The notes below the pieces were generated by a model. That model did no database searches. It saw nothing but the letters and a program-made list of their open reading frames with translations, and had not been told where the DNA came from. This document shows, piece by piece, positions 357-58,800 of a stretch of 64,000 bases of DNA (position 1 is its first letter; each line of letters begins with the position of its first letter). The translations under genes and the position numbers were made by a program. Location: positions 2,046,001 through 2,110,000 of the forward strand of contig NZ_BAFN01000001.1 in NCBI RefSeq assembly GCF_000949635.1, given 5' to 3'. The stretch comes from Candidatus Brocadia sinica JPN1. GTDB lineage: Bacteria > Planctomycetota > Brocadiia > Brocadiales > Brocadiaceae.

Positions 357-962
357 TCATATTTTTATCATTCCAGAAAATCCCACAAAGGCAAGCGACA
401 TAATACCGATAATAATGAGGGTAATGGCGGGACCCTCCAGACCCTTGGGAAGCTCGCTTTCTTTTATCTTCTCACGGATACCGCCGATAAGGGTAATTGC
501 GAGAAACCAGCCAAAGCCCCCGCCAGCGCCAAAGACAAAGGCCTGCCAGAATGTATAGGGTTTATTTAACATAAAAAGCGCAATACCCAGAATTGCACAG
601 TTAACGGTAATGAGTGGCAGAAAAATACCCAGGGCATAGTATAGTTTTTCAGAAAAGCGTTCAATGATCATTTCCAAAAGCTGTGTAAAGGCCGCAATAA
701 TAACGATAAAGGTTATTAAGCGCAAATACTCGATTCCCAGCGGGACAAGAACATATTGATAGATCAAAAAATTAAAGGCGGTTGTGCTGGCAGTCACAAA
801 CATCACTGCACCGCCCAGACCAATACTGGTATCGACCTTTTTGGAGATTGCCAGACACGAACACATCCCCAGAAACCGGGCCAGCAGGATATTGTCAGTA
901 AAAGCCGCGGAGGTAAAAACGAGCGCCAGTGATACAAAAAAATTCATATTTTGCAGATCCAT
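357..962 (-). CDS. nqrE: Na+-translocating NADH:quinone oxidoreductase subunit E
   Basis: Integral membrane protein of 201 aa with about six helices, the usual size of NqrE/RnfA. The family signatures LGIFLPLITVNCAILG (about residues 111-126) and GGIREKIKESELPKGLEGP (about 160-178) are present; the second and the early FLGMCSCLAISKK stretch are nearer to NqrE than RnfA. NqrD and NqrE form the inverted pair of membrane subunits that hold an iron centre between them and take part in electron transfer coupled to Na+ pumping. The start codon is 10 nt behind the nqrD stop, so the two are certainly co-transcribed. Rnf homology is the only serious alternative; the neighbouring NqrF-type ferredoxin subunit decides for Nqr. 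Confidence 0.9.
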   Translation of the reverse strand: MDLQNMNFFVSLALVFTSAAFTDNILLARFLGMCSCLAISKKVDTSIGLGGAVMFVTASTTAFNFLIYQYVLVPLGIEYLRLITFIVIIAAFTQLLEMIIERFSEKLYYALGIFLPLITVNCAILGIALFMLNKPYTFWQAFVFGAGGGFGWFLAITLIGGIREKIKESELPKGLEGPAITLIIIGIMSLAFVGFSGMIKI

Positions 963-972
963 GGTATTCTCC

Positions 973-1584
973 TTATCGTTTTACTTCTTTGATCAGCCAC
1001 CTGCGGGCAAACCAGGTAAACATACCAAGCATAAAAAAAGCGCCTGGAGGCATGACCATGATGATCCATGAATGCCACCAGACGTCGCGTGCAGGCAAGG
1101 CCATACCCAGAATAGTTCCAAATCCAAGAGGCTCACGCACTGATGCAATAAAGATAAGCACAAGCGAATATCCAACTCCTGATGCAACGCCGTCAAACAG
1201 TGAAAGCAGCGGCTTGTTCTGACTGGCAAAGGCCTCTGCCCTTCCCATGATTATACAATTGGTAATGATCAGGCCCACATAAGGACCGATAAAGCGATGA
1301 ATGTCGGGAGCAAAGGCCTTGATGATGATATCAACGATCATAACATAGGAGGCTATAATAAGTACCTGTACAATCATACGTATACGTTTCGGAACATAAT
1401 CTCGCAAGAGTGAAATAGTGAAGTTGGAAAGTGCGGTGGTGAAGATTAACCCAAAACACATAAAAAGGGTATTTGTCAGCAGATTGGTAACAGCAAGCGT
1501 AGAACAAATTCCCAATACCTGCCGATAGATAGGGTTTTCCAGCCAGATACCATTGAAAAAAACTTGTTTTGGTGTATAAGCCAT
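973..1584 (-). CDS. nqrD: Na+-translocating NADH:quinone oxidoreductase subunit D
   Basis: Membrane protein of 203 aa with about six helices, matching the NqrD/RnfE family in length. The conserved blocks VLGICSTLAVTN (about residues 23-34), TTALSNFTISLLRDYVPKRIRMIVQ and FIGPYVGLIITNCIIMGRAEAFA are clear; the last contains the family cysteine thought to ligate the intramembrane iron. It pairs with NqrE in the membrane. The gene lies 10 nt upstream of nqrE but 322 nt downstream of nqrC, with repeat-type DNA in that spacer, which is unusual for an operon that is otherwise tightly packed. The C-terminus (FARRWLIKEVKR) is basic, consistent with a cytoplasmic end. Confidence 0.9.
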   Translation of the reverse strand: MAYTPKQVFFNGIWLENPIYRQVLGICSTLAVTNLLTNTLFMCFGLIFTTALSNFTISLLRDYVPKRIRMIVQVLIIASYVMIVDIIIKAFAPDIHRFIGPYVGLIITNCIIMGRAEAFASQNKPLLSLFDGVASGVGYSLVLIFIASVREPLGFGTILGMALPARDVWWHSWIIMVMPPGAFFMLGMFTWFARRWLIKEVKR

Positions 1585-1906
1585 AAAATGCCCTTACATT
1601 AATTGAAGCACATAATTAAATTCGGTTGGGTTTTAAAAGTCTCGCTGGTTCAATTGTCCCCGATTGAACCGAAGCATTTGGAACAATTCCGTCTCATAGC
1701 ACGATTTCAAGCTACCATTCAAATATCTGGTTCAATCTGCAGGATTGAACCAGCCTTGAGAAATTCCTTAACATTTAATTAGGACTTCAGAGACTTTTTC
1801 ATGCAGAGCGATGGGGCTCGTTGCTCCACAACCGCAGCATTGGAATTCCTTTTTTGTGGTGACAGGGTTAACTTCTGTCGCCACGCCAATTTCGTATGTA
1901 ATCCAA
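1585..1906. repeat. Repeat-rich spacer inside the nqr cluster
   Basis: No gene is visible in these 322 bases between nqrC and nqrD. They hold two hairpins of the same GGTTCAATC...GATTGAACC type: 1647-1670, and 1727-1753 with 12-nt perfect arms. Next comes the block around 1770-1800 that is the reverse complement of the GAAGGCCTAATTTAA motif found in other spacers of this window, then a degenerate copy (about 1803-1831) of the GTAGAGCGA palindrome. The same hairpin recurs at 41924-41947. The spacer is therefore a chain of dispersed elements rather than a gene remnant. Confidence 0.75.
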
Positions 1907-2569
1907 TCATTCCCACGGCAAAGGAGGCTCAATCATTGTTTTTTCTTTTTGTTCCTTCATTACTTTTCTGAATGACTCAAGCTCGCTATTTAAAAACTTC
2001 ATGAGCGCCAGGGACGTTTGTGTGGCACCAGTAATAGCATCAACCCGGTTTTTTGCTTTAGGATCCGGCGCCGGACCTACAATAATACGCTTATCAACCG
2101 GCTTGTCCCATGAAATAAGAACGCCTTTAAATTGATCAATAAACCAGCCTTCTTCAATACGCGCCCCCAACCCGGGTGTCTCCTTCTGGTCGAGGAATTG
2201 AATATTCACGATTTCCGACAGATCCGGCGAAAGCACAAGAATACCTGTGATACGGTCCCAGAATCCTGTACCGCTGAAGACAAAGCCGATATTACCAGTA
2301 TCCATTTGTTTATATACATCCCATGTACGCCCCTGAGAGACAATCTGCTCATAGCTAATGTCGTCATCGATTGCTTTTTGAAAGGCATCAGCAGAGGCTC
2401 TGGCGACCGGCAGATTAAATACACGGCATATGCTCCTGTTCCTATGCAGTTTTTCGTTTTTCCTGAGCATATCGAGCGTTGCATAATGTACAGAAGAAAT
2501 GGCCGTGCCAAATACCGTGCAAATGATTATCATGAAGCCAAGAATATAGGCAGGAGAGGTTTTTGTCAT
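1907..2569 (-). CDS. nqrC: Na+-translocating NADH:quinone oxidoreductase subunit C (FMN-binding)
   Basis: Protein of 220 aa with one N-terminal membrane anchor (about residues 8-26) and a periplasmic FMN-binding domain. The attachment motif is DAITGATQTS, in which Thr183 is the expected site of covalent phosphoester-linked FMN (family motif S/T-G-A-T). The preceding segment QKETPGLGARI (about 128-138) is the conserved NqrC/RnfG signature. FMN here receives electrons from NqrF on the way to NqrB. The ATG overlaps the nqrB stop by four bases (ATGA), implying translational coupling. The sequence is shorter than many NqrC proteins and resembles RnfG in length; context favours NqrC. Confidence 0.88.
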   Translation of the reverse strand: MTKTSPAYILGFMIIICTVFGTAISSVHYATLDMLRKNEKLHRNRSICRVFNLPVARASADAFQKAIDDDISYEQIVSQGRTWDVYKQMDTGNIGFVFSGTGFWDRITGILVLSPDLSEIVNIQFLDQKETPGLGARIEEGWFIDQFKGVLISWDKPVDKRIIVGPAPDPKAKNRVDAITGATQTSLALMKFLNSELESFRKVMKEQKEKTMIEPPLPWE

Positions 2570-3633
2570 GGCGATACAACCCCTTTGCTATCCGGCGCAG
2601 TTCCTTTTTCAGGGCTTTTCATACGACTAATCCACAAATCCAGGGATGGGGCAAGTATATTGCCAAGCAGAATGGAAAATGCTGCGCCGCCGGCAAAAAT
2701 GCTTTTGGAACGGAAAACGACAATCATGGTGCCAATAAAGAAACCATAAATCCATTGCGACAGGGTGACCTTGGGAGCGCTGACCGGATCGGTAACCATA
2801 AAGACCGCTGCATAGAAGAGCGCACCGGAAAAGAGGGTAAAGAGTGGTGGCGGGACGGTTCTGATGCCGAAGGCATATCTGAAGACAAGTGAAGAGATAA
2901 TTGCCCCTAGTAATGTCGACAAGGTCAAACGCCAATTTGCCGTTTTGGTCCATAACAAATAGGCGCCCGACAGCAATATGACCAGCGCGGAAACTTCGCC
3001 CGCTGAACCGGCAGCCAGAACCATTTTTTTGCCTTCATATTCAAAAATGGTTCCTATATTACCAAGGAACAGGGAAACAATTGAACTGGTAAAACCATAA
3101 TCCCGATTCGTCCACATGGGTGTTGCAGCGGTTATTGCATCAACAACCTTTAGCCCTGCCTCAGCAATAAATTGCGGCGTTTGTTCCAAACCCGCCATGC
3201 TCCAATGGCCGAAACCTCCAGGAAACCCCGTAAATACCGGCACAAAACGACCCGTCAGTTCAATGGGAAAACATACAAAAACAAAGCCGCGTCCAACGAT
3301 AGCGGGATTAAATACATTTTTCCCAAATCCTCCAAACATCTCTTTCGCAAATAAAATAGCGATAATAATGCCAACAGTAACGATCCATAGCGGTGTGGTT
3401 GGTGGAAGAGAAAGGGCATATATCCCTGCAGTAACAAAACATGCATAACTTATTTTCCCTTTTCTCAAAGAAGCCATGACCCATTCTGTCAGGAAAGCAA
3501 ATATCATTGAAACGGCTATAACGCTGGCGATACACCAGCCAAAAAAATAGACAGCCACTACACCAACTGGTATGAGCGAATACAGCACCCGGAGCATAAT
3601 TTCCTGTTTCAGGACTTTGGGGGAAGAAAGCAT
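2566..3633 (-). CDS. nqrB: Na+-translocating NADH:quinone oxidoreductase subunit B (FMN-binding)
   Basis: Polytopic membrane protein of 355 aa (about ten helices) of the NqrB/RnfD family. VFNPAIVGRGF (about residues 107-117) is the conserved cytoplasmic-side signature, and DAITAATPM carries Thr171, the expected covalent FMN site (family consensus SGATPL, here with A in place of G). PVSAPKV near residue 285 matches the conserved late motif. NqrB carries the Na+ path and passes electrons through riboflavin and FMN towards quinone. This is the first gene of the cluster; in typical nqr operons nqrA precedes it, but upstream is 629 nt of non-coding DNA and then a divergent heat-shock gene. Confidence 0.9.
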   Translation of the reverse strand: MLSSPKVLKQEIMLRVLYSLIPVGVVAVYFFGWCIASVIAVSMIFAFLTEWVMASLRKGKISYACFVTAGIYALSLPPTTPLWIVTVGIIIAILFAKEMFGGFGKNVFNPAIVGRGFVFVCFPIELTGRFVPVFTGFPGGFGHWSMAGLEQTPQFIAEAGLKVVDAITAATPMWTNRDYGFTSSIVSLFLGNIGTIFEYEGKKMVLAAGSAGEVSALVILLSGAYLLWTKTANWRLTLSTLLGAIISSLVFRYAFGIRTVPPPLFTLFSGALFYAAVFMVTDPVSAPKVTLSQWIYGFFIGTMIVVFRSKSIFAGGAAFSILLGNILAPSLDLWISRMKSPEKGTAPDSKGVVSP

Positions 3634-4262
3634 TTTTCTACCAGAAAGAAATAAGATTTTTTTTAAAAGATTGACTTTCCTATTTGCTCAATTACTATAC
3701 CAAAAGTGACAGATTTTCATAAATATCACATAAATTTGTCCTAGTCATAATCAAATCTGGTAGTTACGGAAAACAGAATTAATCGGCAAGATTAAATTTC
3801 CGGATATTTTTATCAAGAATCTTAGACCAAAATTCTATTTAATTAGATTTCAGGAGAAATATTGCAAAGAAAGTTATGAGATATTTTGTTATATTACGAA
3901 TCTTTCCGAAAATATCCGTTACGAGAATTGGGAGTAATCCCACCAATTGGCATCTTTATTGCCTAATACAATAAAAATTTCTATGATTAACGATTATTTT
4001 GGATGCTGAATGGAAATGAACAGATACAGGAATTTTCATAAACCGCTATATCTCAAAGAGAAATGATTTCCATATGCATGATAATGGTAAAGTTTTGAAA
4101 ACCCCAAAAATGAAAATTAATCCAGGAGTGTGGAACACGACGTCTAAAATCTTGGATAATTCCAAAAGATTTAAAATAATCTATGAATAGAAGCTAAAAT
4201 TTATGAGATGAAGTGGTCCGTATATTATTTTTCATCCACGTACACACAGGAGGTGAATGTTA
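3634..4262. other. Divergent non-coding region between nqrB and hsp20
   Basis: AT-rich, 629 bases, with no plausible gene in either direction. It must contain the promoters for the nqr cluster (leftward) and the hsp20 pair (rightward). I see no CIRCE-type inverted repeat and no convincing sigma-32 promoter. nqrA, which would be expected here in a canonical operon, is absent. Confidence 0.6.
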
Positions 4263-4712
4263 ATGAACCTTATAAAATGGGACAGATCAGATCCTTTAAA
4301 TAGCCTTACCCATATCCAGCGAGAGATGAGTGATTTATTAGACATTTTGAGTTCCACACCTCAAATCGAAGGTTATGTGAATGTGGAATTTCCACCAATT
4401 ATTGTCTCTGCAAATGAAGATAGTGTTTTTGTTCGTGCCGAACTTCCCGGGGTCAGAATCAGTGATCTGGATGTCCAGGTAGTTGATGATGTATTAACGA
4501 TCAGGGGAGAAAGAAAACCCGTCGTTACCACGGCAAAGATAACGTATTTGCGCAGGGAAAGGAACTACGGAACGTTTGCCCGTTCTCTCATGTTGCCTGA
4601 AAAAACCGACGTGGAAAAAGTAACGGCTTCTTATAAAAATGGTGTTTTAACGGTAAAACTCCCGAAAGCCGCGGCGGCGAAACCAAAGCAAGTTGTAATT
4701 AAAAAAGCATAA
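4263..4712 (+). CDS. Small heat-shock protein, Hsp20/alpha-crystallin family
   Basis: Protein of 149 aa: a short N-terminal arm (MNLIKWDRSDPLNSL), an alpha-crystallin domain from about residue 38 to 135 (start FPPIIVSANEDSVFVRAELPG, with the family signature GVLTVKLPKA near the end) and a short basic tail. Such proteins form oligomers that hold unfolding proteins without ATP. Two ATGs are possible: the one at 4257 would be only 3 nt from AGGAGG, whereas that at 4263 is 9 nt away, so 4263 is preferred. First gene of a tandem pair, 20 nt before the second hsp20. Together with the next genes it suggests a general stress operon. Confidence 0.93.
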   Translation: MNLIKWDRSDPLNSLTHIQREMSDLLDILSSTPQIEGYVNVEFPPIIVSANEDSVFVRAELPGVRISDLDVQVVDDVLTIRGERKPVVTTAKITYLRRERNYGTFARSLMLPEKTDVEKVTASYKNGVLTVKLPKAAAAKPKQVVIKKA

Positions 4713-4732
4713 CAAAAAAGGAGATTTTTATC

Positions 4733-5137
4733 ATGGATACAAAAGAACATCCAGCTGTCGGAAAAAAGAAGATTACGCCTGATAAGTGTGTCGTGACTGG
4801 AAAAGGGGACTGGTACTTTCCTTTGTCTGATATTTATGAAACGCCGGACAACTTCACTATTTTGATAGATATGCCGGGAGTGTCTACCGAAAACATAACC
4901 ATTGATATGCGTGACAATGAATTAGTCATCAACGGTGAGGTTTCCCAAGAGGCGTATACTGATGAGAAAATACTCCATAATGAGTATAACATCGGACATT
5001 ACCATAGACACTTTGCTATCTCCGATGCCATTAACAGGGATAAAATTGAGGCAAAGATGTCTGATGGTGTCTTGTCTCTTGTCCTGCCCAAGGCAGAACA
5101 TGTAAAACCGCGGAAGATTGAAGTCAAGGCGGAATAA
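4733..5137 (+). CDS. Second small heat-shock protein, Hsp20 family
   Basis: Protein of 134 aa with a full alpha-crystallin domain (about residues 34-130), including PLSDIYETPDNFTILIDMPG at its start and DGVLSLVLPKA at its end. It diverges clearly from the neighbouring copy, so the pair is an old duplication or two subfamilies that may co-assemble. It lacks the usual long N-terminal arm and begins with a lysine-rich stretch holding a single cysteine (CVVTGKG). The start is set by AAAGGAG 8-9 nt upstream. It lies 20 nt behind the first copy and 64 nt before the ferredoxin gene, on the same strand. Confidence 0.92.
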   Translation: MDTKEHPAVGKKKITPDKCVVTGKGDWYFPLSDIYETPDNFTILIDMPGVSTENITIDMRDNELVINGEVSQEAYTDEKILHNEYNIGHYHRHFAISDAINRDKIEAKMSDGVLSLVLPKAEHVKPRKIEVKAE

Positions 5138-5163
5138 TCTCATAACCTTTTGCAGGAGGCTTC

Positions 5164-5199
5164 ATGGATGTGGTATTCCTGTCGTTGAAAGGCACCTAA
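5164..5199 (+). CDS. Possible 11-codon leader peptide before the ferredoxin
   Basis: A strong AGGAGG (about 5153-5158) sits 5 nt before an ATG that opens a frame of only 11 codons (MDVVFLSLKGT) ending in TAA at 5197-5199. The ferredoxin ATG follows two bases later. The arrangement would allow translational coupling by re-initiation, because the ferredoxin itself has only a weak AAAGG. It may equally be a remnant of an earlier start. Nothing in the peptide suggests amino-acid-dependent attenuation. Confidence 0.3.
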   Translation: MDVVFLSLKGT

Positions 5200-5201
5200 T
5201 T

Positions 5202-5399
5202 ATGATTTTTGTAGATAACACTGAATGCGTCGGTTGCGAAGAATGTTTGCATGTTTGCCCTATGGAATCCATTATTATGAAACATGAGAAGGCGGAAATT
5301 ATGCAACACAAGTGTGATGAGTGCGAGCGTTGCATCCCGGTGTGCCCTGTAAAGGCGATCCAGATTGCATCCACACCATTAAAGAAGAGGTATATTTAA
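5202..5399 (+). CDS. 2[4Fe-4S] ferredoxin
   Basis: Protein of 65 aa with two bacterial-type cluster motifs, CVGCEECLHVCP (about residues 8-19) and CDECERCIPVCP (about 38-49), each C-x2-C-x2-C-x3-CP. It is therefore a soluble low-potential electron carrier of the clostridial type. Start chosen at the ATG that gives the usual MIFVDNTEC beginning; reading further upstream in the same frame would add about 28 residues unlike any ferredoxin. Placed directly before superoxide reductase, it could be an electron donor to that enzyme, but this is inference from position only. Confidence 0.9.
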   Translation: MIFVDNTECVGCEECLHVCPMESIIMKHEKAEIMQHKCDECERCIPVCPVKAIQIASTPLKKRYI

Positions 5400-5432
5400 T
5401 TCTCTAAACATTTTTAATAAGGAGCGTGAAAA

Positions 5433-5798
5433 ATGGCAGAAACAAGTTTGTTTTGCCAGGTCAATACCCTGGCCACAGGTCCGGCAGATACTGCAAAGAA
5501 ACATGTGCCTGTAATTACCATACAAGGCAACGCAAAGGTGGGGCAGCCCTTTACGGTAAACATAAAGGTGGGAGAAGCCCCTCATGGAATGGAAAATGGC
5601 CATTTCATTCAATTTGTAGATCTGTATTGTGGCCACATATATATTTCACGGGTCGATTTTACCGCTGAGCTTAATAGACCGGAAGTGTCGCTAAGTGTTG
5701 TTTTGCAGCATGAGGGGAAAAGAACACTTCGGGCATTTAGTCGGTGCAATCTTCATGGCATCTGGGAAGGAACAAAGGAAGTGGATGTGACGAAATAA
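5433..5798 (+). CDS. Superoxide reductase, class II (neelaredoxin type)
   Basis: Protein of 121 aa equal to the catalytic domain of desulfoferrodoxin without the N-terminal rubredoxin-like domain. The Fe(His)4Cys centre is complete: His24 in KKHVPVI, His51 and His57 in APHGMENGHFI, Cys105 and His108 in CNLHG. It reduces superoxide to peroxide without releasing oxygen, typical of anaerobes. In many relatives the residues before His24 are Glu-Lys; here they are Lys-Lys, so the glutamate that can cap the sixth iron site is replaced. RBS AAGGAG lies 8-9 nt upstream. The ferredoxin upstream and the cytochromes downstream may supply electrons. Confidence 0.92.
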   Translation: MAETSLFCQVNTLATGPADTAKKHVPVITIQGNAKVGQPFTVNIKVGEAPHGMENGHFIQFVDLYCGHIYISRVDFTAELNRPEVSLSVVLQHEGKRTLRAFSRCNLHGIWEGTKEVDVTK

Positions 5799-5838
5799 TT
5801 TCCTACGTTTCTCTTAATGAAAAAAGAAGGAGCAATTT

Positions 5839-6033
5839 ATGGTAAAAGTAAAAACTTTTACTTCATCTCTGAAGATATTCCATGTCCATAACGAACTTAT
5901 GGAACTGGATAAAACGGTGAATGATTTTTTGCAGCAGAATAATATAAAAAAAGTGGTTTCCGTTTGCGATAGCACTACCAATACCGATGGCGGTACGATG
6001 GGCATCATTCGCGTCCTCACCTATGAAGAATAA
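5839..6033 (+). CDS. Small conserved-looking protein of unknown function
   Basis: Protein of 64 aa, preceded by AGAAGGAG 7-8 nt upstream, so it is probably translated. Predicted pattern: strand (KVKTFTSS), helix (ELMELDKTVNDFLQQN), strand (KKVVSVCDST), strand (GIIRVLTYE), i.e. a compact beta-alpha-beta-beta fold. The layout (short strand, helix ending in NDFL, late hydrophobic strand) recalls small Cse60/DUF2758-like proteins, but no motif proves this. It lies 40 nt after superoxide reductase and probably shares its transcript. No signal peptide or membrane segment; one cysteine. Confidence 0.7.
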   Translation: MVKVKTFTSSLKIFHVHNELMELDKTVNDFLQQNNIKKVVSVCDSTTNTDGGTMGIIRVLTYEE

Positions 6034-6131
6034 GATATCCATCGGAGAAAATAATCGCTGAAAGAGGCATCTGTGCCAGTCAGTACTGGATCTTGGTTTA
6101 ACATCTATCATTTTTAAGGAGGAAAAAAGAT

Positions 6132-6482
6132 ATGCGTAAGACAGGAATTTTTGCGGGAATATCATTGGCAGTTATTGGAGGGACAGTTACCTTTTTTTCG
6201 GGAATGCCGGCTTCTAAAGCCGCCGATATCGATGCTAAAAAACTATTCATGACCCACTGCAAAACCTGTCATGGCGAGGATGGCCATCCTACGGACCTCG
6301 GACTGGGATTAGGGGCGCGTGAGTTTGCTAATGCGGAATGGCAGGCAAAGACAACCGATGAACAGATCATCAAGCAAATTAACAATGGCACTCCGGAAAA
6401 GATGATGCCGTTTAAAGAAAAACTTACTCAGGATGAGATTAAGGCATTGGTATCTGTTATCAGGAGTTTTGGGAAGAAATAA
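6132..6482 (+). CDS. Periplasmic monoheme cytochrome c, class I
   Basis: Protein of 116 aa with a Sec signal peptide (about residues 1-30, cleavage near SKAAD) and one heme site CKTCH at about 43-47. The methionine ligand is probably in KMMPFKEKLT (about 93-102). Size and layout are those of a small class I cytochrome c acting as a soluble electron shuttle outside the cytoplasmic membrane. It is paralogous to the cytochrome at 6639-7001: the two share KKLF..HC.TCHGE.G, W.A...DE.I...I.NG and a KMP-type Met region. Strong RBS AAGGAGG about 8 nt before the ATG. Confidence 0.92.
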   Translation: MRKTGIFAGISLAVIGGTVTFFSGMPASKAADIDAKKLFMTHCKTCHGEDGHPTDLGLGLGAREFANAEWQAKTTDEQIIKQINNGTPEKMMPFKEKLTQDEIKALVSVIRSFGKK

Positions 6483-6497
6483 ATTCGTATTCAAACA

Positions 6498-6579
6498 GGA
6501 CACAGATCTTCACAGATACGCACGGATACTTATAAAGTTCTTTCCTTAAATATCCGTAGGTCTGTGTTTATCTGTGTCC
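6498..6579. repeat. 82-nt inverted repeat with GGACACAGAT ends
   Basis: The spacer between the two cytochrome genes is an 82-nt imperfect inverted repeat opening with GGACACAGAT and closing with ATCTGTGTCC, with inner CACGGATA/TATCCGT pairing. A second element with the same ends and the same 82-nt length is at 28093-28174. As RNA it would form a long hairpin between two co-oriented genes. Confidence 0.75.
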
Positions 6580-6638
6580 ATAAGGGAAATTCTATGCGAT
6601 TAAGATATCAGTATCCTTTTTTGAGGGAGCTTTGAGGT

Positions 6639-7001
6639 ATGGGCGATTGGAAAAGGGCTGTGTGTTATACAATATTCTCTTTTGTTTTCTTCTGTTTGTA
6701 TTCCGGTTTCTCAACGGTTTGGGGACAGGAGGAGGAAGAAATTAACCCAAAAAAATTATTTGAATACCACTGCGCTACCTGTCACGGTGAGAATGGTAAA
6801 GGTACCAAGAGGGGACGGGAATTGAAAGCCCCCGATCTGGCAGATTCAGATTGGCAGGCACAAAAAAAGGATGAGGAGATATTAAATTCCATTATCAATG
6901 GCAAGAACAAGATGCCTCGTTGGAGCGACAAGCTAAAACCAGAAGAGATACAAGCACTGGCCGGGTACGTACGAAAATTAGTCCCTAAAAAAAGAACATA
7001 A
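6639..7001 (+). CDS. Monoheme cytochrome c, class I (second copy)
   Basis: Protein of 120 aa with an N-terminal hydrophobic signal (about residues 8-29, ending TVWGQ), an acidic linker EEEE and one heme motif CATCH (about 45-49). KMPRWSDKL (about 89-97) supplies the probable axial methionine. It is a clear paralog of the cytochrome at 6132-6482, separated by an inverted repeat, so gene duplication is likely. The signal could be cleaved after the alanine-poor VWGQ region or stay as an anchor. Probable role: periplasmic electron carrier to the peroxidase and dehydrogenase genes nearby. Confidence 0.9.
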   Translation: MGDWKRAVCYTIFSFVFFCLYSGFSTVWGQEEEEINPKKLFEYHCATCHGENGKGTKRGRELKAPDLADSDWQAQKKDEEILNSIINGKNKMPRWSDKLKPEEIQALAGYVRKLVPKKRT

Positions 7002-27913: not shown

Positions 27914-28216
27914 GTATCAATGTGTCTTTTAATTAGGTTGGGTTTTAAAAGGCAAAACCCAACGACTTTTTTATCCACCCCAAAATCCCCTCCCAAGAGG
28001 GGACTTCTCAAATTACCCTCTTGAGGGGGGCAAGGGGTGTGTTTATTCATAACTTAACGAAAAAGGAATTGAAATTCCTGTACATTAAATCAGGACACAG
28101 ATTTTTTCGATACACGCAGATAATCGCAAGTCCTTTATATTTTGTATCCTGATAATCTGTGTGCATCTGTGTCCAAAACAAAAATTCCCCTATCATAAAT
28201 CACATGAAAGGATACA
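27914..28216. repeat. Repeat-type spacer after uvrA
   Basis: About 27930-27970 has GTTGGGTTTTAAAAGGCAAAACCCAAC (inverted repeat). Next comes CCCCTCCCAAGAGGGG and CCCTCTTGAGGGGGGCAAGGGGTG (about 27985-28040), then the GGAATTGAAATTCC palindrome, and finally the 82-nt GGACACAGAT element listed separately. No gene. Confidence 0.75.
28093..28174. repeat. 82-nt inverted repeat with GGACACAGAT ends (second copy)
   Basis: Same terminal sequences and same total length as the element at 6498-6579 (GGACACAGAT...ATCTGTGTCC), with a diverged centre. Positioned 43 nt before the flippase-like gene. Confidence 0.75.
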
Positions 28217-46497: not shown

Positions 46498-48999
46498 TTA
46501 CCGAAAATCATCTAAATATTGTTTTGCCTTTGCATGATTTGGATTTAGCCTTAATACCCCCTGCCATGATTTTATGGCCTTTTCTTTTTCTCCCCGCCTG
46601 GAATAAATAGTTCCCATACAAAAAAGGGCCTCGGTATGGGTTGGGGCTAATTTCAGCGTCATTTCGAATTCCTTCAGGGCATTTTTCAAATCGCCTTTTT
46701 GTAAAAGGGCATATCCGATATTAAAATGGAAATCGGGCTGGTCGGGAAGCAAATCCACAGCCTTTTGAAATGAGGCCAGAGCACCATTCCTGTCTCCTTT
46801 TTTGATCAGTGAGGCGCCAAGATTATTATACGAATAAGGATACGCTGAATCGAGCCTTATTGCATGGTTATATTCTGCTATTGCATCTTCCAGACGGCCT
46901 TTTTTGTCATAAATAGTGCCCAGGTTATTATGGACATAAACTTGTGACGGATCGACCTTCAGGGCAGTCTGATATACCTCTAAGGCAAGGTCATACTGTT
47001 CTCTTGTCTCGTAAATATTACCCAGATTATAATACGCATCGCCGTATTGCGGGTCTAACGACAGTGCTTTTTTGTATGCAATCACAGCATCTTCCTGCCT
47101 GCCGAGTTTATTATATAAGACACCAAGATTGTTGTATGCATAGGCAAAATTGGGGTCGATGGCAATGGCATTGTTATACTCGGCGATTGCATCATCATAT
47201 CGATTCAGAACAAAATAAACCTTTCCCAGGTTGTTGTGCGCCTGTTGGTAATCCGGTTTTATCTGAATTGCTTTTTTGTAAGCAGTAACGGCCTGATTGA
47301 GCAGGTTCTTTTTCTCGTAGACATTTCCCATATTATAATACACAGTTGCATACTGAGCAAATCCAACCTCCCTGGCCTTTTGCAGGGCTTTTTGATAGCA
47401 AAGCAATGCCGCGTCCGGATAACCCTTCTTGTTGTATTGTGTTCCCAGATTGTTATACGTTGTAAAACTGCACAACGGGCTTTGGGAAGAATTATACCAG
47501 AGCGTAAATTCATCCCGCCAAACGTTGTTTCTGGTAACTGTCACAACAATATAGAATATCATCAAAGAAATGATTACAGGATACTTTATTATTGATATCT
47601 TCAGCTGTAGCAGGGTAGTTGAAAGAAACAGGCAGAAGCCGAGAATGGGTAAATAGAGATAACGGTCCGCCATGACATTTGCCAATGGGATAATATTCAT
47701 GACCGGGAGGACAGAGATAAAAAACCACAGTGTGGCAAATATCATTATACGGTAATGATGCCTTTTTTCCCGTAGTCGAATCGCAATAATGACAATGGAA
47801 ATTAGTACAAAAAGGGGAATAATAAAGGATAATGTCAAAGGCGTTTTCAGATATAGAACATGATAGTCTGCATTCAGGTTTAATGGCAGGAAAATATTGG
47901 ACATGTATCTCCCCAGTACCTTTGTCATGGTAAGCATATTGACAAAAAAACTGCCTTCCGGATAGACAATCTTTTCCTGGGGATTATGAAAAATGAAGAA
48001 CCTGATGGTGAGGTATACAAGGCTTATTCCGATATATCCCAGGAAAAAAGGAGAACGTATTATTTTTGAAACGGTTTTGTAAACAGCAAAATACAGAGGC
48101 AGGCGGACGTTCTCCCTTATTCTTGCATTGAATAGCAGATCGAAGAAAAAAATCAAAGCCGGCAATACAATGGCGGATTCCTTGGAAAGCAAGGCAAAGA
48201 AATAGGCTGCCATGGCGCCCGCACAGAGAAAAACGGTACCGGTGTGGAAATGTCCTGACAATGAGAATCCCCCTGAATCCGCAATTTTTAAAAGGTCACA
48301 AAGGGAAGTCTGCGTGCCTTTCCTCTCCCTATAAAGCAAATAGAGTAAAAATGAAACAATCGAAAATGCTGTTGTAATCAAGTCTTCCCGGTAACTGATC
48401 ACATTGACAACCTCGCTTGATATGGGATGTACTGCAAAAAGCATGCACGTAAGCGATGCAAGACAGGCATAGGAAATTTGGTCAAGACGCGGTTGGGTTT
48501 TTGGGGCAAGTTTTTTCTCCCCAGTGGTATTCCCTTTACAAGGGAGTGATTGAAAAGTTTGTTGGCATACCTTTCTCTTCATACGCCCTTGCGAAGGGGA
48601 GGGGAGTTGGTTGTGGCTGTATGGCGTTTTATATGTGCTATATTGGCGGAATAAGAGAAGTACGAGAAAATAGATAAGCATTACATTCAGGGTATGCAAT
48701 ACCACATTTACCATGTGGTATCCCATAGGGTTCATGTGCCAGAGGAAATAATCGATGAAGTAGGAGAGTGTAACAAGGGGGCGGTAGGTAAGCTCACCCG
48801 AATATTTGAAATAGTCGTGAGTAATTAAGTCATGAAAATTTCCCCAATCCTTGATGAGTCGGTTCTCTACAATGGTAGACGTATCATCGTAAACAAACTG
48901 ATTTGGCAGGCAGTTCAGGTACGTGATTATCGTTAGCACAACAATTATAGGGATTGTAATATTCTGCAAATAGAGGTTATTTTGATATGCTTTCTTCAT
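46498..48999 (-). CDS. Large membrane protein with C-terminal TPR array (TMTC-like)
   Basis: Protein of 833 aa. The N-terminal 500 residues carry about ten helices with the early luminal-type motif NQFVYDDTSTI...YRPL (about residues 33-74), as in glycosyltransferase-C-like TPR membrane proteins (TMTC type). The C-terminal 330 residues are about nine TPR units with the repeating pattern A..NNLG..Y...G...DAI..Y..AI..DP. The catalytic Asp pair would be DD at 38-39. Residues about 128-168 are an odd Pro/Lys/Ser-rich insert between two helices, encoded by palindromic repeat DNA. A role in O-mannosylation-like glycosylation or protein assembly is inference. Confidence 0.85.
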   Translation of the reverse strand: MKKAYQNNLYLQNITIPIIVVLTIITYLNCLPNQFVYDDTSTIVENRLIKDWGNFHDLITHDYFKYSGELTYRPLVTLSYFIDYFLWHMNPMGYHMVNVVLHTLNVMLIYFLVLLLFRQYSTYKTPYSHNQLPSPSQGRMKRKVCQQTFQSLPCKGNTTGEKKLAPKTQPRLDQISYACLASLTCMLFAVHPISSEVVNVISYREDLITTAFSIVSFLLYLLYRERKGTQTSLCDLLKIADSGGFSLSGHFHTGTVFLCAGAMAAYFFALLSKESAIVLPALIFFFDLLFNARIRENVRLPLYFAVYKTVSKIIRSPFFLGYIGISLVYLTIRFFIFHNPQEKIVYPEGSFFVNMLTMTKVLGRYMSNIFLPLNLNADYHVLYLKTPLTLSFIIPLFVLISIVIIAIRLREKRHHYRIMIFATLWFFISVLPVMNIIPLANVMADRYLYLPILGFCLFLSTTLLQLKISIIKYPVIISLMIFYIVVTVTRNNVWRDEFTLWYNSSQSPLCSFTTYNNLGTQYNKKGYPDAALLCYQKALQKAREVGFAQYATVYYNMGNVYEKKNLLNQAVTAYKKAIQIKPDYQQAHNNLGKVYFVLNRYDDAIAEYNNAIAIDPNFAYAYNNLGVLYNKLGRQEDAVIAYKKALSLDPQYGDAYYNLGNIYETREQYDLALEVYQTALKVDPSQVYVHNNLGTIYDKKGRLEDAIAEYNHAIRLDSAYPYSYNNLGASLIKKGDRNGALASFQKAVDLLPDQPDFHFNIGYALLQKGDLKNALKEFEMTLKLAPTHTEALFCMGTIYSRRGEKEKAIKSWQGVLRLNPNHAKAKQYLDDFR
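48496..48618. repeat. Palindromic repeat inserted in frame in the TPR membrane gene
   Basis: The DNA of residues about 128-168 holds CCCTTCGCAAGGG and CCCTTGTAAAGGG hairpins within CTCCCCT-rich flanks, the same style as intergenic elements of this window. In the protein it reads SPSQGRMKRK...SLPCKGNTTGEK, low in hydrophobic residues, and lies in a loop between predicted helices. Confidence 0.65.
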
Positions 49000-55713: not shown

Positions 55714-56285
55714 ACATTACTCCTGAATTAAATGGACACACATTCTCTTTATTTTTTATCTGCACATGCAAATCAAATCTTAAAAATAACAAATCCATAA
55801 GAGATTGTCAATACCATCACAAGTTCCTGATACTCCCAAATTCCAGCCTAAAACAATGCCTGATTCATGCTTGACACATTAAACACATCGTGATACACTT
55901 CACACCACAAGATTTAAAATGTGTGTAAGATTGAGGAAGCTGGGTGAACAGGGAGAACAGGAATTAATCCTAAACCCGAACGAGTCGGAAAAGACAAAAT
56001 CCGAAGCACGAAATTCGTGAGTCAACCCTGGCAGCGCTAATTTAACGTTAAGGAATTTCAAACTTTTCGCCTTCCCCTTAGTCCCCCTCACGAGGGGGGC
56101 AACAGCTGTCCCCCGCTGGCGGGGGTGAAGGGGGTGGACTGCCATTGCGAAAATAGATATTTTAAGTCGCCGAAGGACTAATTTTTCAGATTTTTGCTAA
56201 AAATGTCAAAATTATCTTTGGAAGATACTATCGGTGTTCTTCAATCCCCTTTTTTCCCAGCACATTTTGTTAGAACAGGATTTTC
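55714..56285. repeat. Divergent intergenic region with composite repeat element
   Basis: No gene. From about 56040 a full composite element is seen: TTAACGTTAAGGAATTTCAAACTTTTCGCC, then CCCCCTCACGAGGGGGG, then CCCCCGCTGGCGGGGG, GAAGGGGGTGG, and at about 56160 AAGTCGCCGAAGGACTAATTTTT. It shares both ends with the spacer at 46.2-46.3 kb but has an extra palindromic core. The remaining part must hold the htpG and glyQ promoters. Confidence 0.75.
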
Positions 56286-57246: not shown

Positions 57247-58740
57247 TTAATGCCCCTTTAAGCACGAAGTAAAAATATCCTTCAATTCATTGATTATTTG
57301 AAGCGCCTTACTGGTGCCGCCTTTTGCAATCAAACATTCTGCATCCTGTTTAATCAAAATATCAGCTTGTGTCATCAATAGATACTGCCTTCTGTTAAAT
57401 AGTATTGGTTTCATGGGTTTGTATACTGTATCAAATTCCTCTGTAAGCCTCCTGTGTAGCTCTTCAAACTCATTGCTGTTTACCGCGGATATGCAACATG
57501 CTGACTGCTGAAGCGCGGATTCGATCCTTAATCTGTTTAATTTTGTGGGTAGGTCACATTTGTTAATCACGGGTATAATTGCCTTCATATCTCCTTTTTG
57601 GCTCAGATTGTCAAAATTCCCTGTCTTCAACCACGAGTTTAAGGTATTCAGGATTCCCTCATCCTCTTGATCAAAAGGTCTGGAATTATCAAAAACGGCA
57701 ATAACCTTATCAGAACGATGAACTTGTTCCAGTGTCAGTTCTATACTCAAAGCCTCCAGCTTATCGCTCGTATCCCGCATACCTGCTGTATCCACAAGTT
57801 CAAAGGGGATACCTTCTATCGAAATAAGCTCGCTCACATAATCACGCGTTGTCCCTGGCTCATGATGGACAATCATCCGTTCTTCCCCAAGGATGGTATT
57901 TATAATGGTCGACTTGCCTACATTGGGTTTACCCAGAATTACCAAAACTTGCGGGGAGGTCAGCGCCATACCCAAGGAAGCCGTTTCCAATAAGCTCTCA
58001 ATGTGCTCTGACAGGGCAGAAATTAACACACTGGTCTCATCCGAAAATCCCCCCTTACACCACTTTTTCAAAGGAGGAATATTTGAAATCCCATTTTTGC
58101 AAGGTGGGATTAAAGGGGATTTTCCTTCTCCTTTGTGTTGCTCTGTGTACGGAATTGTTTCATGGCGAGAGGATCCTTTGTGCAAGGCTTGCCTGATTTT
58201 TTCAATGATCTCTAACCCTTTTTTGAGCGCTTCCGACAGCGCTCCTGCGTTTTGATCTAGCAAGACCTTTACACCGAACCTGGTCCGTGCCCGGACAACC
58301 TCCAGAAGCGCCTCCTTCCGAATAAAATCCATCTTGTTATTTTCATAGGACTGCAATAGCAACGCATCCCATGCAGCACCCTTTGCGCCTGCGAACTGTA
58401 AGCATTCATGGATACGCATCAGAACGCGGATGCCGCCGTGACAATTTACCTCTACTACATCTTCTCCGGTAAAACTATCCCCTTTCTTTGCTATATTTAC
58501 AATAACCTCGTCAATCCTTTGGCCCCCATCAAAAATATACCCGTAATAGAGCTTATAGCTCATGGCTTTACGAAGATCATCAATTCCCTTTCCCTGAAAC
58601 ACCTTATTGACGACGCTCAAAGCATCCGGGCCGGACACAATAACTTTACCAATGCCACCTTCGCCCAAAGGAGTAACAATCGATGCTATGGGTTTACATT
58701 CTATAAATCCATCTTCTTTTGATTCATGTATTCTTTCCAT
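57247..58740 (-). CDS. mnmE: MnmE-like GTPase (divergent tRNA modification GTPase)
   Basis: Protein of 497 aa, longer than usual (about 450). N-terminal folate-binding-type domain (IASIVTPLGEGGIGKVIVSGPDAL), helical domain, then an inserted G domain: GKPNVGKST, TTRD, DTAGMRD, NKCD. Oddities: an N-terminal extension of about 15 residues; a weakly conserved central region (EFTxRAFxNGKxDL-type motif is not recognisable, replaced by NNKMDFIRKEALLEVV); a C-terminus DIFTSCLKGH in place of the essential FCIGK; and a repeat-encoded insert at about residues 203-233. It may be a functional but drifting MnmE or a paralog. Start at ATG 58740; one six codons upstream is possible. Confidence 0.78.
   Translation of the reverse strand: MERIHESKEDGFIECKPIASIVTPLGEGGIGKVIVSGPDALSVVNKVFQGKGIDDLRKAMSYKLYYGYIFDGGQRIDEVIVNIAKKGDSFTGEDVVEVNCHGGIRVLMRIHECLQFAGAKGAAWDALLLQSYENNKMDFIRKEALLEVVRARTRFGVKVLLDQNAGALSEALKKGLEIIEKIRQALHKGSSRHETIPYTEQHKGEGKSPLIPPCKNGISNIPPLKKWCKGGFSDETSVLISALSEHIESLLETASLGMALTSPQVLVILGKPNVGKSTIINTILGEERMIVHHEPGTTRDYVSELISIEGIPFELVDTAGMRDTSDKLEALSIELTLEQVHRSDKVIAVFDNSRPFDQEDEGILNTLNSWLKTGNFDNLSQKGDMKAIIPVINKCDLPTKLNRLRIESALQQSACCISAVNSNEFEELHRRLTEEFDTVYKPMKPILFNRRQYLLMTQADILIKQDAECLIAKGGTSKALQIINELKDIFTSCLKGH
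58045..58123. repeat. Palindromic repeat inserted in frame in the mnmE-like gene
   Basis: About 80 bases with inverted ends AAAATCCCC.../...GGGGATTTT and inner AAATCCCA/TGGGATT pairing, of the class AAATCCCCCTT...AAGGGGATTT common as intergenic elements in many bacteria. On the coding strand it gives GKSPLIPPCKNGISNIPPL and KKWCKGGFSDE, a hydrophilic Pro/Gly/Lys-rich loop inside the helical domain. Reading frame is kept. Confidence 0.8.
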
Positions 58741-58800
58741 AAAAATAGATAATAACAATTATTATCAATGACGACAATAACACACTTTGTTAAATTTTAC

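Follow-up and report, generated by a model that had tools for sequence, protein, structure and literature searches.

The mnmE-like gene of Candidatus Brocadia sinica JPN1 carries, in frame, a palindromic stretch that is very probably a decayed member of a family of non-autonomous palindromic elements dispersed in Brocadiales genomes (type A), apparently tolerated in a loop of the protein. The gene lies in a 64,000-nucleotide stretch of DNA (the window; NZ_BAFN01000001.1, positions 2,046,001 to 2,110,000), and the coordinates below are those of the window unless a locus is named. The genome, G000, comprises 4.08 Mb in three contigs. Copies of the element are found between genes and inside genes, and related genomes have empty sites where some copies lie. 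In relatives, the same loop of MnmE is occupied by an unrelated palindrome (type B).

The palindrome in mnmE

The host ORF (57247..58758, minus strand) encodes 503 aa from a TTG start, although an ATG at 58740 is the more natural start. It matches the Pfam domains TrmE_N (6e-21) and MMR_HSR1 (3.5e-21), its best solved relative is TrmE of Thermotoga maritima (1xzp, E 4.6e-51), and MnmE structures are the best fold matches to its AlphaFold2 model. Named relatives of the protein come from Ca. Brocadia and other Brocadiaceae. The MnmE of E. coli ends in CIGK; the Brocadiales proteins end in CLKG or CLxG (57247-57330 in the window), with the cysteine kept and the motif shifted. In G003, mnmE-like matches are found on two contigs, C253 (L022, complete) and C229 (first half), which may mean that the gene is duplicated or that the assembly mixes strains.

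The element is an imperfect palindrome of 82 nt (58043..58124, minus strand) with inverted arms. In the coding sense its 5′ side is the outer arm GGGGATTTTC (58115..58124, given on the plus strand) and its 3′ side the outer arm GAAAATCCCC (58043..58052, likewise plus strand). By its sequence and by comparison with full-length copies, it holds two inner hairpins on the minus strand: hairpin 1, ATCCCACCTTGCAAAAATGGGAT (58088..58110), and a decayed hairpin 2 around ATTCCTCCTTTGAAAAAGTGGTGT (58058..58080, limits approximate). An inverted-repeat search returned 24-nt arms that are 75% complementary with a spacing of 34 nt. The mRNA-sense strand of the element folds at −30.9 kcal/mol, a value equalled by 1 of 200 dinucleotide shuffles. 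The arm motif alone occurs in the window as often as chance predicts, so it is no evidence by itself. The first-pass annotation had described a palindromic repeat kept in frame within an mnmE-like GTPase, and the inverted arms, the fold relative to shuffles and a match to an independent model of the family (58046-58122; see below) bear this out. Its placement at about residues 203-233 was slightly off: translation puts the element at residues 212-239, with the peptide KSPLIPPCKNGISNIPPLKKWCKGGFS.

The AlphaFold2 model, built on a 29-row alignment, places residues 199-238 (58045..58164, minus strand) in a loop, predicted to be disordered, that joins helix 173-197 to helix 239-258. In these residues pLDDT falls below 50, with block means of 32-42 against 77 overall, so that the insert is modelled as 40 residues of low confidence. 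The roughly 13 residues that precede the element (SSRHETIPYTEQHKG) are partly common to G015 and G022, pointing to a layered history of insertion. The DNA of this preceding stretch (58125-58164, residues 199-211; CTTCTCCTTTGTGTTGCTCTGTG on the plus strand) recurs beside two palindromes in G015, and the stretch may be a second, older repeat.

A dispersed element family

In its own genome the 100-bp stretch recovers almost nothing by BLASTN and no good second copy, and a search with the exact arm pattern likewise finds almost no copies. The conclusion that no other copies exist, which these searches suggested, was overturned by a profile model, since the copies have diverged beyond the reach of BLASTN. 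Full-length copies in relatives were found with an idealised insert, designed from the window sequence with its decay smoothed out. A covariance model, R1, was then built from eight copies that all come from other genomes, so that it contains no window sequence. R1 matches the mnmE insert with 44.1 bits (E=5.8e-9 in the window, 3.8e-7 in the genome) and the mnmE orthologue of G009, the closest relative compared, with E=8.6e-7; these and the other R1 E-values derive from a shortened calibration.

Type A elements are about 70-82 bp long, with ends ACACACCCC/ACAACCCCC and a C-rich/G-rich outer stem that encloses two inner hairpins. Full-length copies, of which L145 (ACAACCCCCTTCACCCCCTTTGCTAAGGGGGAACTCCGAAATCCCCCTTAGCAAAGGGGGACTTAGGGGGTTGT) is an example, fold as single strands into one long hairpin (z −7 to −10). 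R1 has matches in 32 of the 32 Brocadiales genomes searched, and counts over both strands run from 1 to 115: the highest are in G015 (115) and G006 (98), and the lowest (1-9) in G035, G037, G038, G041 and G042. The palindromic core CCCCCTTT..AAAGGGGG occurs 110 times in G015, 39 times in G033, 23 times in G014, 12 times in G006 and once in G000, with none in the reversed control. The genome-wide R1 count for G000 is a lower bound, as 150 of 1114 candidates were scored and copies missed there are present in a scan of 460 kb around the window. That scan holds 18 R1 copies at E up to 0.1. The element has no match in Rfam, and plasmid records compared with its consensus gave one weak match only, in Pseudanabaena. 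One palindrome subfamily (L210, L213, L216, L221 and L073) has conserved flanks, about GCAATGACAG ... AATTTTTGTTTGAA, so that the palindrome there is part of a longer repeat.

Further copies thus exist in numbers both inside and outside genes. Within the 460 kb, 11 of the 18 copies lie outside any ORF of at least 100 aa, and two such intergenic copies stand in the window itself, at 27971..28043 (E=4.2e-6) and 56069..56138 (E=3.9e-4). The other seven keep the reading frame of five genes, all with Pfam domains: mnmE, the Type III Res gene (ResIII), the Type III Mod gene (N6_N4_Mtase; three copies), the TPR gene at 46498-48999 and a TPR paralogue in L071. Elsewhere in G000, in-frame copies are carried by an integrase, where a single Pfam Phage_integrase match spans the insert, by a UvrD-type helicase and by an ORF that resembles a methylase but has no Pfam match; a single TPR gene of G015 carries two copies. 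Among six type A copies sampled, 0-2 of the 6 frames are open (1-4 in the young subfamily of G000), so the in-frame genic copies are a surviving, filtered subset. The elements are not unusually open in all frames: the type A mean is 0.8 of 6 frames, below that of shuffles.

Clean empty sites are seen for the Type III Mod gene. At its site 2 the G000 gene reads ATATCAAGAATTGT[ACACACCCC...GGGGTGGGT]TGGCAGG, with ATATCCAAAGCTGTGAACTGGCAGG in G004 and G017 and nearly the same in G009 and G011; relative to these four genomes there is a net gain of 99 nt (33 codons), with about four target bases replaced and no duplication. At site 1 of the same gene the replacement covers about 16 bases, and in G009 a second copy is nested there. 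Different short repeats stand at the integrase site in the G000 copy, its paralogue in G000 and G009. The Type III restriction-modification locus (L080, G000:C1:1850001-1870000, positions 633-6832) packs five palindromic copies into 6.2 kb, and four of these keep the frame of the Mod or Res gene in which they lie. Several of the five are nearly identical, and the youngest subfamily may therefore have been active recently.

The first-pass annotation had claimed the same phenomenon for the TPR gene, which encodes a membrane protein (46498..48999, minus strand), and this holds in part. The gene has a decayed repeat at residues about 128-161 (48513..48614, minus strand) within a repeat-like loop whose length varies among orthologues; the loop is absent in G006 and G002, and G009 lacks 22 residues between the two hairpin halves. 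The R1 match is weak, however (E=0.005 in the window search, 0.067 in the 460-kb search), which makes this the second, weaker host.

One loop in many genomes

Across 29 mnmE orthologues the loop ranges from 13 to 116 residues, while its flanks align easily. The type A element is present in two of the 29 (G000 and G009); some of the rest have a short loop and others an unrelated type B palindrome, and the insert is accordingly far from universal among relatives. Repeat-free loops of 13-30 aa occur in many of them, including G001, the sister of G000 and G009 in the mnmE tree (support 97/97). When this tree is built without the loop, presence and absence of the insert amount to 8 changes, at least 5 of them forced by well-supported branches, a count that does not separate gain from loss.

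Type B is described by a second covariance model, R2, built from seven copies outside mnmE; it comprises an outer stem TTCACCCCC... and two hairpins in about 100 bp. R2 matches the mnmE loops of L043 (1.8e-16), L021 (3e-11), L032 (4e-9) and L023 (6e-8), and also those of L012, L017, L018, L013 and L027. The loops of L012, L017, L018 and L043 combine an A-like hairpin with type B, and those of L026, L029 and L033 have, by eye, the look of a decayed type A. A broader reading can be put forward tentatively, at somewhat under even chances: that the MnmE loop is a recurrent landing site across the order for unrelated palindrome families that are kept as protein and move without tags or duplications.

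Between G000 and G009 the loop has the same length, with no indels and 83% identity over the tree columns. Its 132 nt hold 15 differences, as against a pS of 0.29-0.30 at synonymous sites elsewhere in the gene, and a loop that is slower than these sites is not evolving freely. Nonsynonymous and synonymous differences number 13:2 in residues 197-240 and 66:74 outside them (Fisher p 0.005), and pN/pS reaches 2.05 in the element, compared with 0.23-0.30 elsewhere. A reading of this value as positive or fully relaxed selection was abandoned, as the ratio is high through the scarcity of synonymous changes (2 in 27.7 sites in the loop, 74 in 249.7 sites in the rest); per site, the loop shows no significant excess of nonsynonymous changes. 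Codon positions in the loop are treated alike, as in sequence without amino-acid preference. The scarce synonymous change could be due to small numbers, to constraint at the DNA level or to conversion between copies.

Origin, retention and relation to known repeats

On the simplest reading, mnmE would have received a type A element before G000 and G009 diverged, in their common ancestor. Two circumstances would explain its retention: the insertion did not break the frame, and the helical domain has at this point an exposed linker joining two of its helices, which could accommodate a flexible, hydrophilic stretch. The peptide is presumably translated, and tolerance probably accounts for its persistence. 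The same mnmE site has taken up the type B family in other lineages, and the same elements lie in frame in other genes.

A Pro-, Lys- and Gly-rich loop that AlphaFold2 predicts to be disordered could instead be an ordinary low-complexity linker grown by slippage, with a fortuitous likeness to a palindrome, and the loop of L013 does contain a slippage-like run of G codons. Slippage would not yield unrelated palindromes in different lineages, though, and the DNA fits a two-hairpin model made from other genomes, just as the type B loops fit R2; this explanation is largely refuted and very improbable. Somewhat less improbable, but still unlikely, is exaptation, in which the peptide, or a hairpin in mRNA or DNA, now functions in MnmE or in its expression. 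The frame kept without indels since the G000/G009 split and the slow evolution of the loop relative to synonymous sites would suit such a role, whereas a nonsynonymous rate no lower than that of the rest of the protein, and the many relatives with unrelated sequence or no insert at the site, speak against it. Tolerance of a decayed type A element is preferred.

How the copies spread is a separate matter. No consistent target-site duplication is seen at the copies and empty sites compared; the empty sites show replaced target bases instead, though flanks have diverged. No transposase gene was found near element copies. Mobility, by transposition or by recombination between copies, is for this reason inferred. 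The GTAG/CGTC tag is absent from the ends of 26 of 27 copies and present at one, and the loci fetched around the 15 Y1_Tnp loci of the genome hold no R1 element; a RAYT might still act on the elements in trans. Compatible with the type A origin is the possibility that sites were seeded once and that recombination or gene conversion between copies, not fresh transposition, did the rest. Recombination following an initial insertion explains the replaced target bases and the reuse of sites no worse than repeated transposition does: different repeats occupy one position in mnmE and in the integrase (G000 copy, its paralogue, G009), the G009 TPR gene lacks the stretch between its two hairpins, and in G009 the first Type III Mod site holds the nested copy. 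Clean empty sites such as Type III Mod site 2, on the other hand, need a first insertion by another route, and the proposal is a plausible one that falls a little short of being favoured.

The classical in-frame palindromic repeats of coding sequence are the Rickettsia palindromic elements (RPE; Ogata et al., 2000, 2002), accounts of which are given in PMC10969869 and PMC2229807. Type A resembles them in being a dispersed palindrome with a long stem-loop that occurs between genes and in frame in unrelated intact genes, where a peptide of tens of residues is apparently tolerated. RPE measure 105-150 bp, whereas type A has about 70-82 bp, two inner hairpins and C/G-rich ends and belongs to a different phylum; in the Brocadiales, moreover, one and the same loop hosts element families that differ between lineages. 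Type A may therefore be said to work like RPE by analogy, with a planctomycete as host and with neither membership nor sequence relation implied. The in-frame and intergenic copies support the earlier analogy with Rickettsia, but Rickettsia is not the sole precedent. Intragenic GTAG/CGTC REPs that encode 20-30 aa are reported from Opitutus terrae (PVC), Thauera, Thioalkalivibrio and others (PMC3733652), and these share with type A their short palindromes, often hairpin dimers, some of them in frame, in the PVC superphylum and in DNA repair genes; they differ in the tag and in the link to Y1_Tnp loci discussed above. MITEs such as ERIC/RU-1 and Correia/NEMIS (PMC2229807) are likewise small, non-autonomous palindromes with terminal inverted repeats and a long stem-loop, sometimes fused in frame. 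Type A has terminal inverted repeats, is short and contains no transposase gene, yet its copies show no consistent target-site duplication. The repeat may be selfish, as the first-pass annotation suggested.

Intragenic palindromic repeats outside Rickettsia are thus already published, and what stands out here is that one loop has been colonised repeatedly. Searches of open-licence papers brought up no earlier account of inserts like these in the Brocadiales, and a term search of a comparative study on Ca. Kuenenia (PMC7709395) yielded transposases and a CRISPR repeat, not these elements. For annotators, Pro/Gly-rich peptides like KSPLIPP..KGGF or HPHPNPPPSRGGRG in these genomes are a warning of repeat-derived sequence. 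As mnmE is found empty, occupied, doubly occupied and decayed in related genomes, the birth and decay of inserts, and the roles of site and element, become directly testable. The Brocadiales offer, besides Rickettsia, a second and phylogenetically deep system for how non-coding repeats become protein sequence, traceable across a bacterial order.
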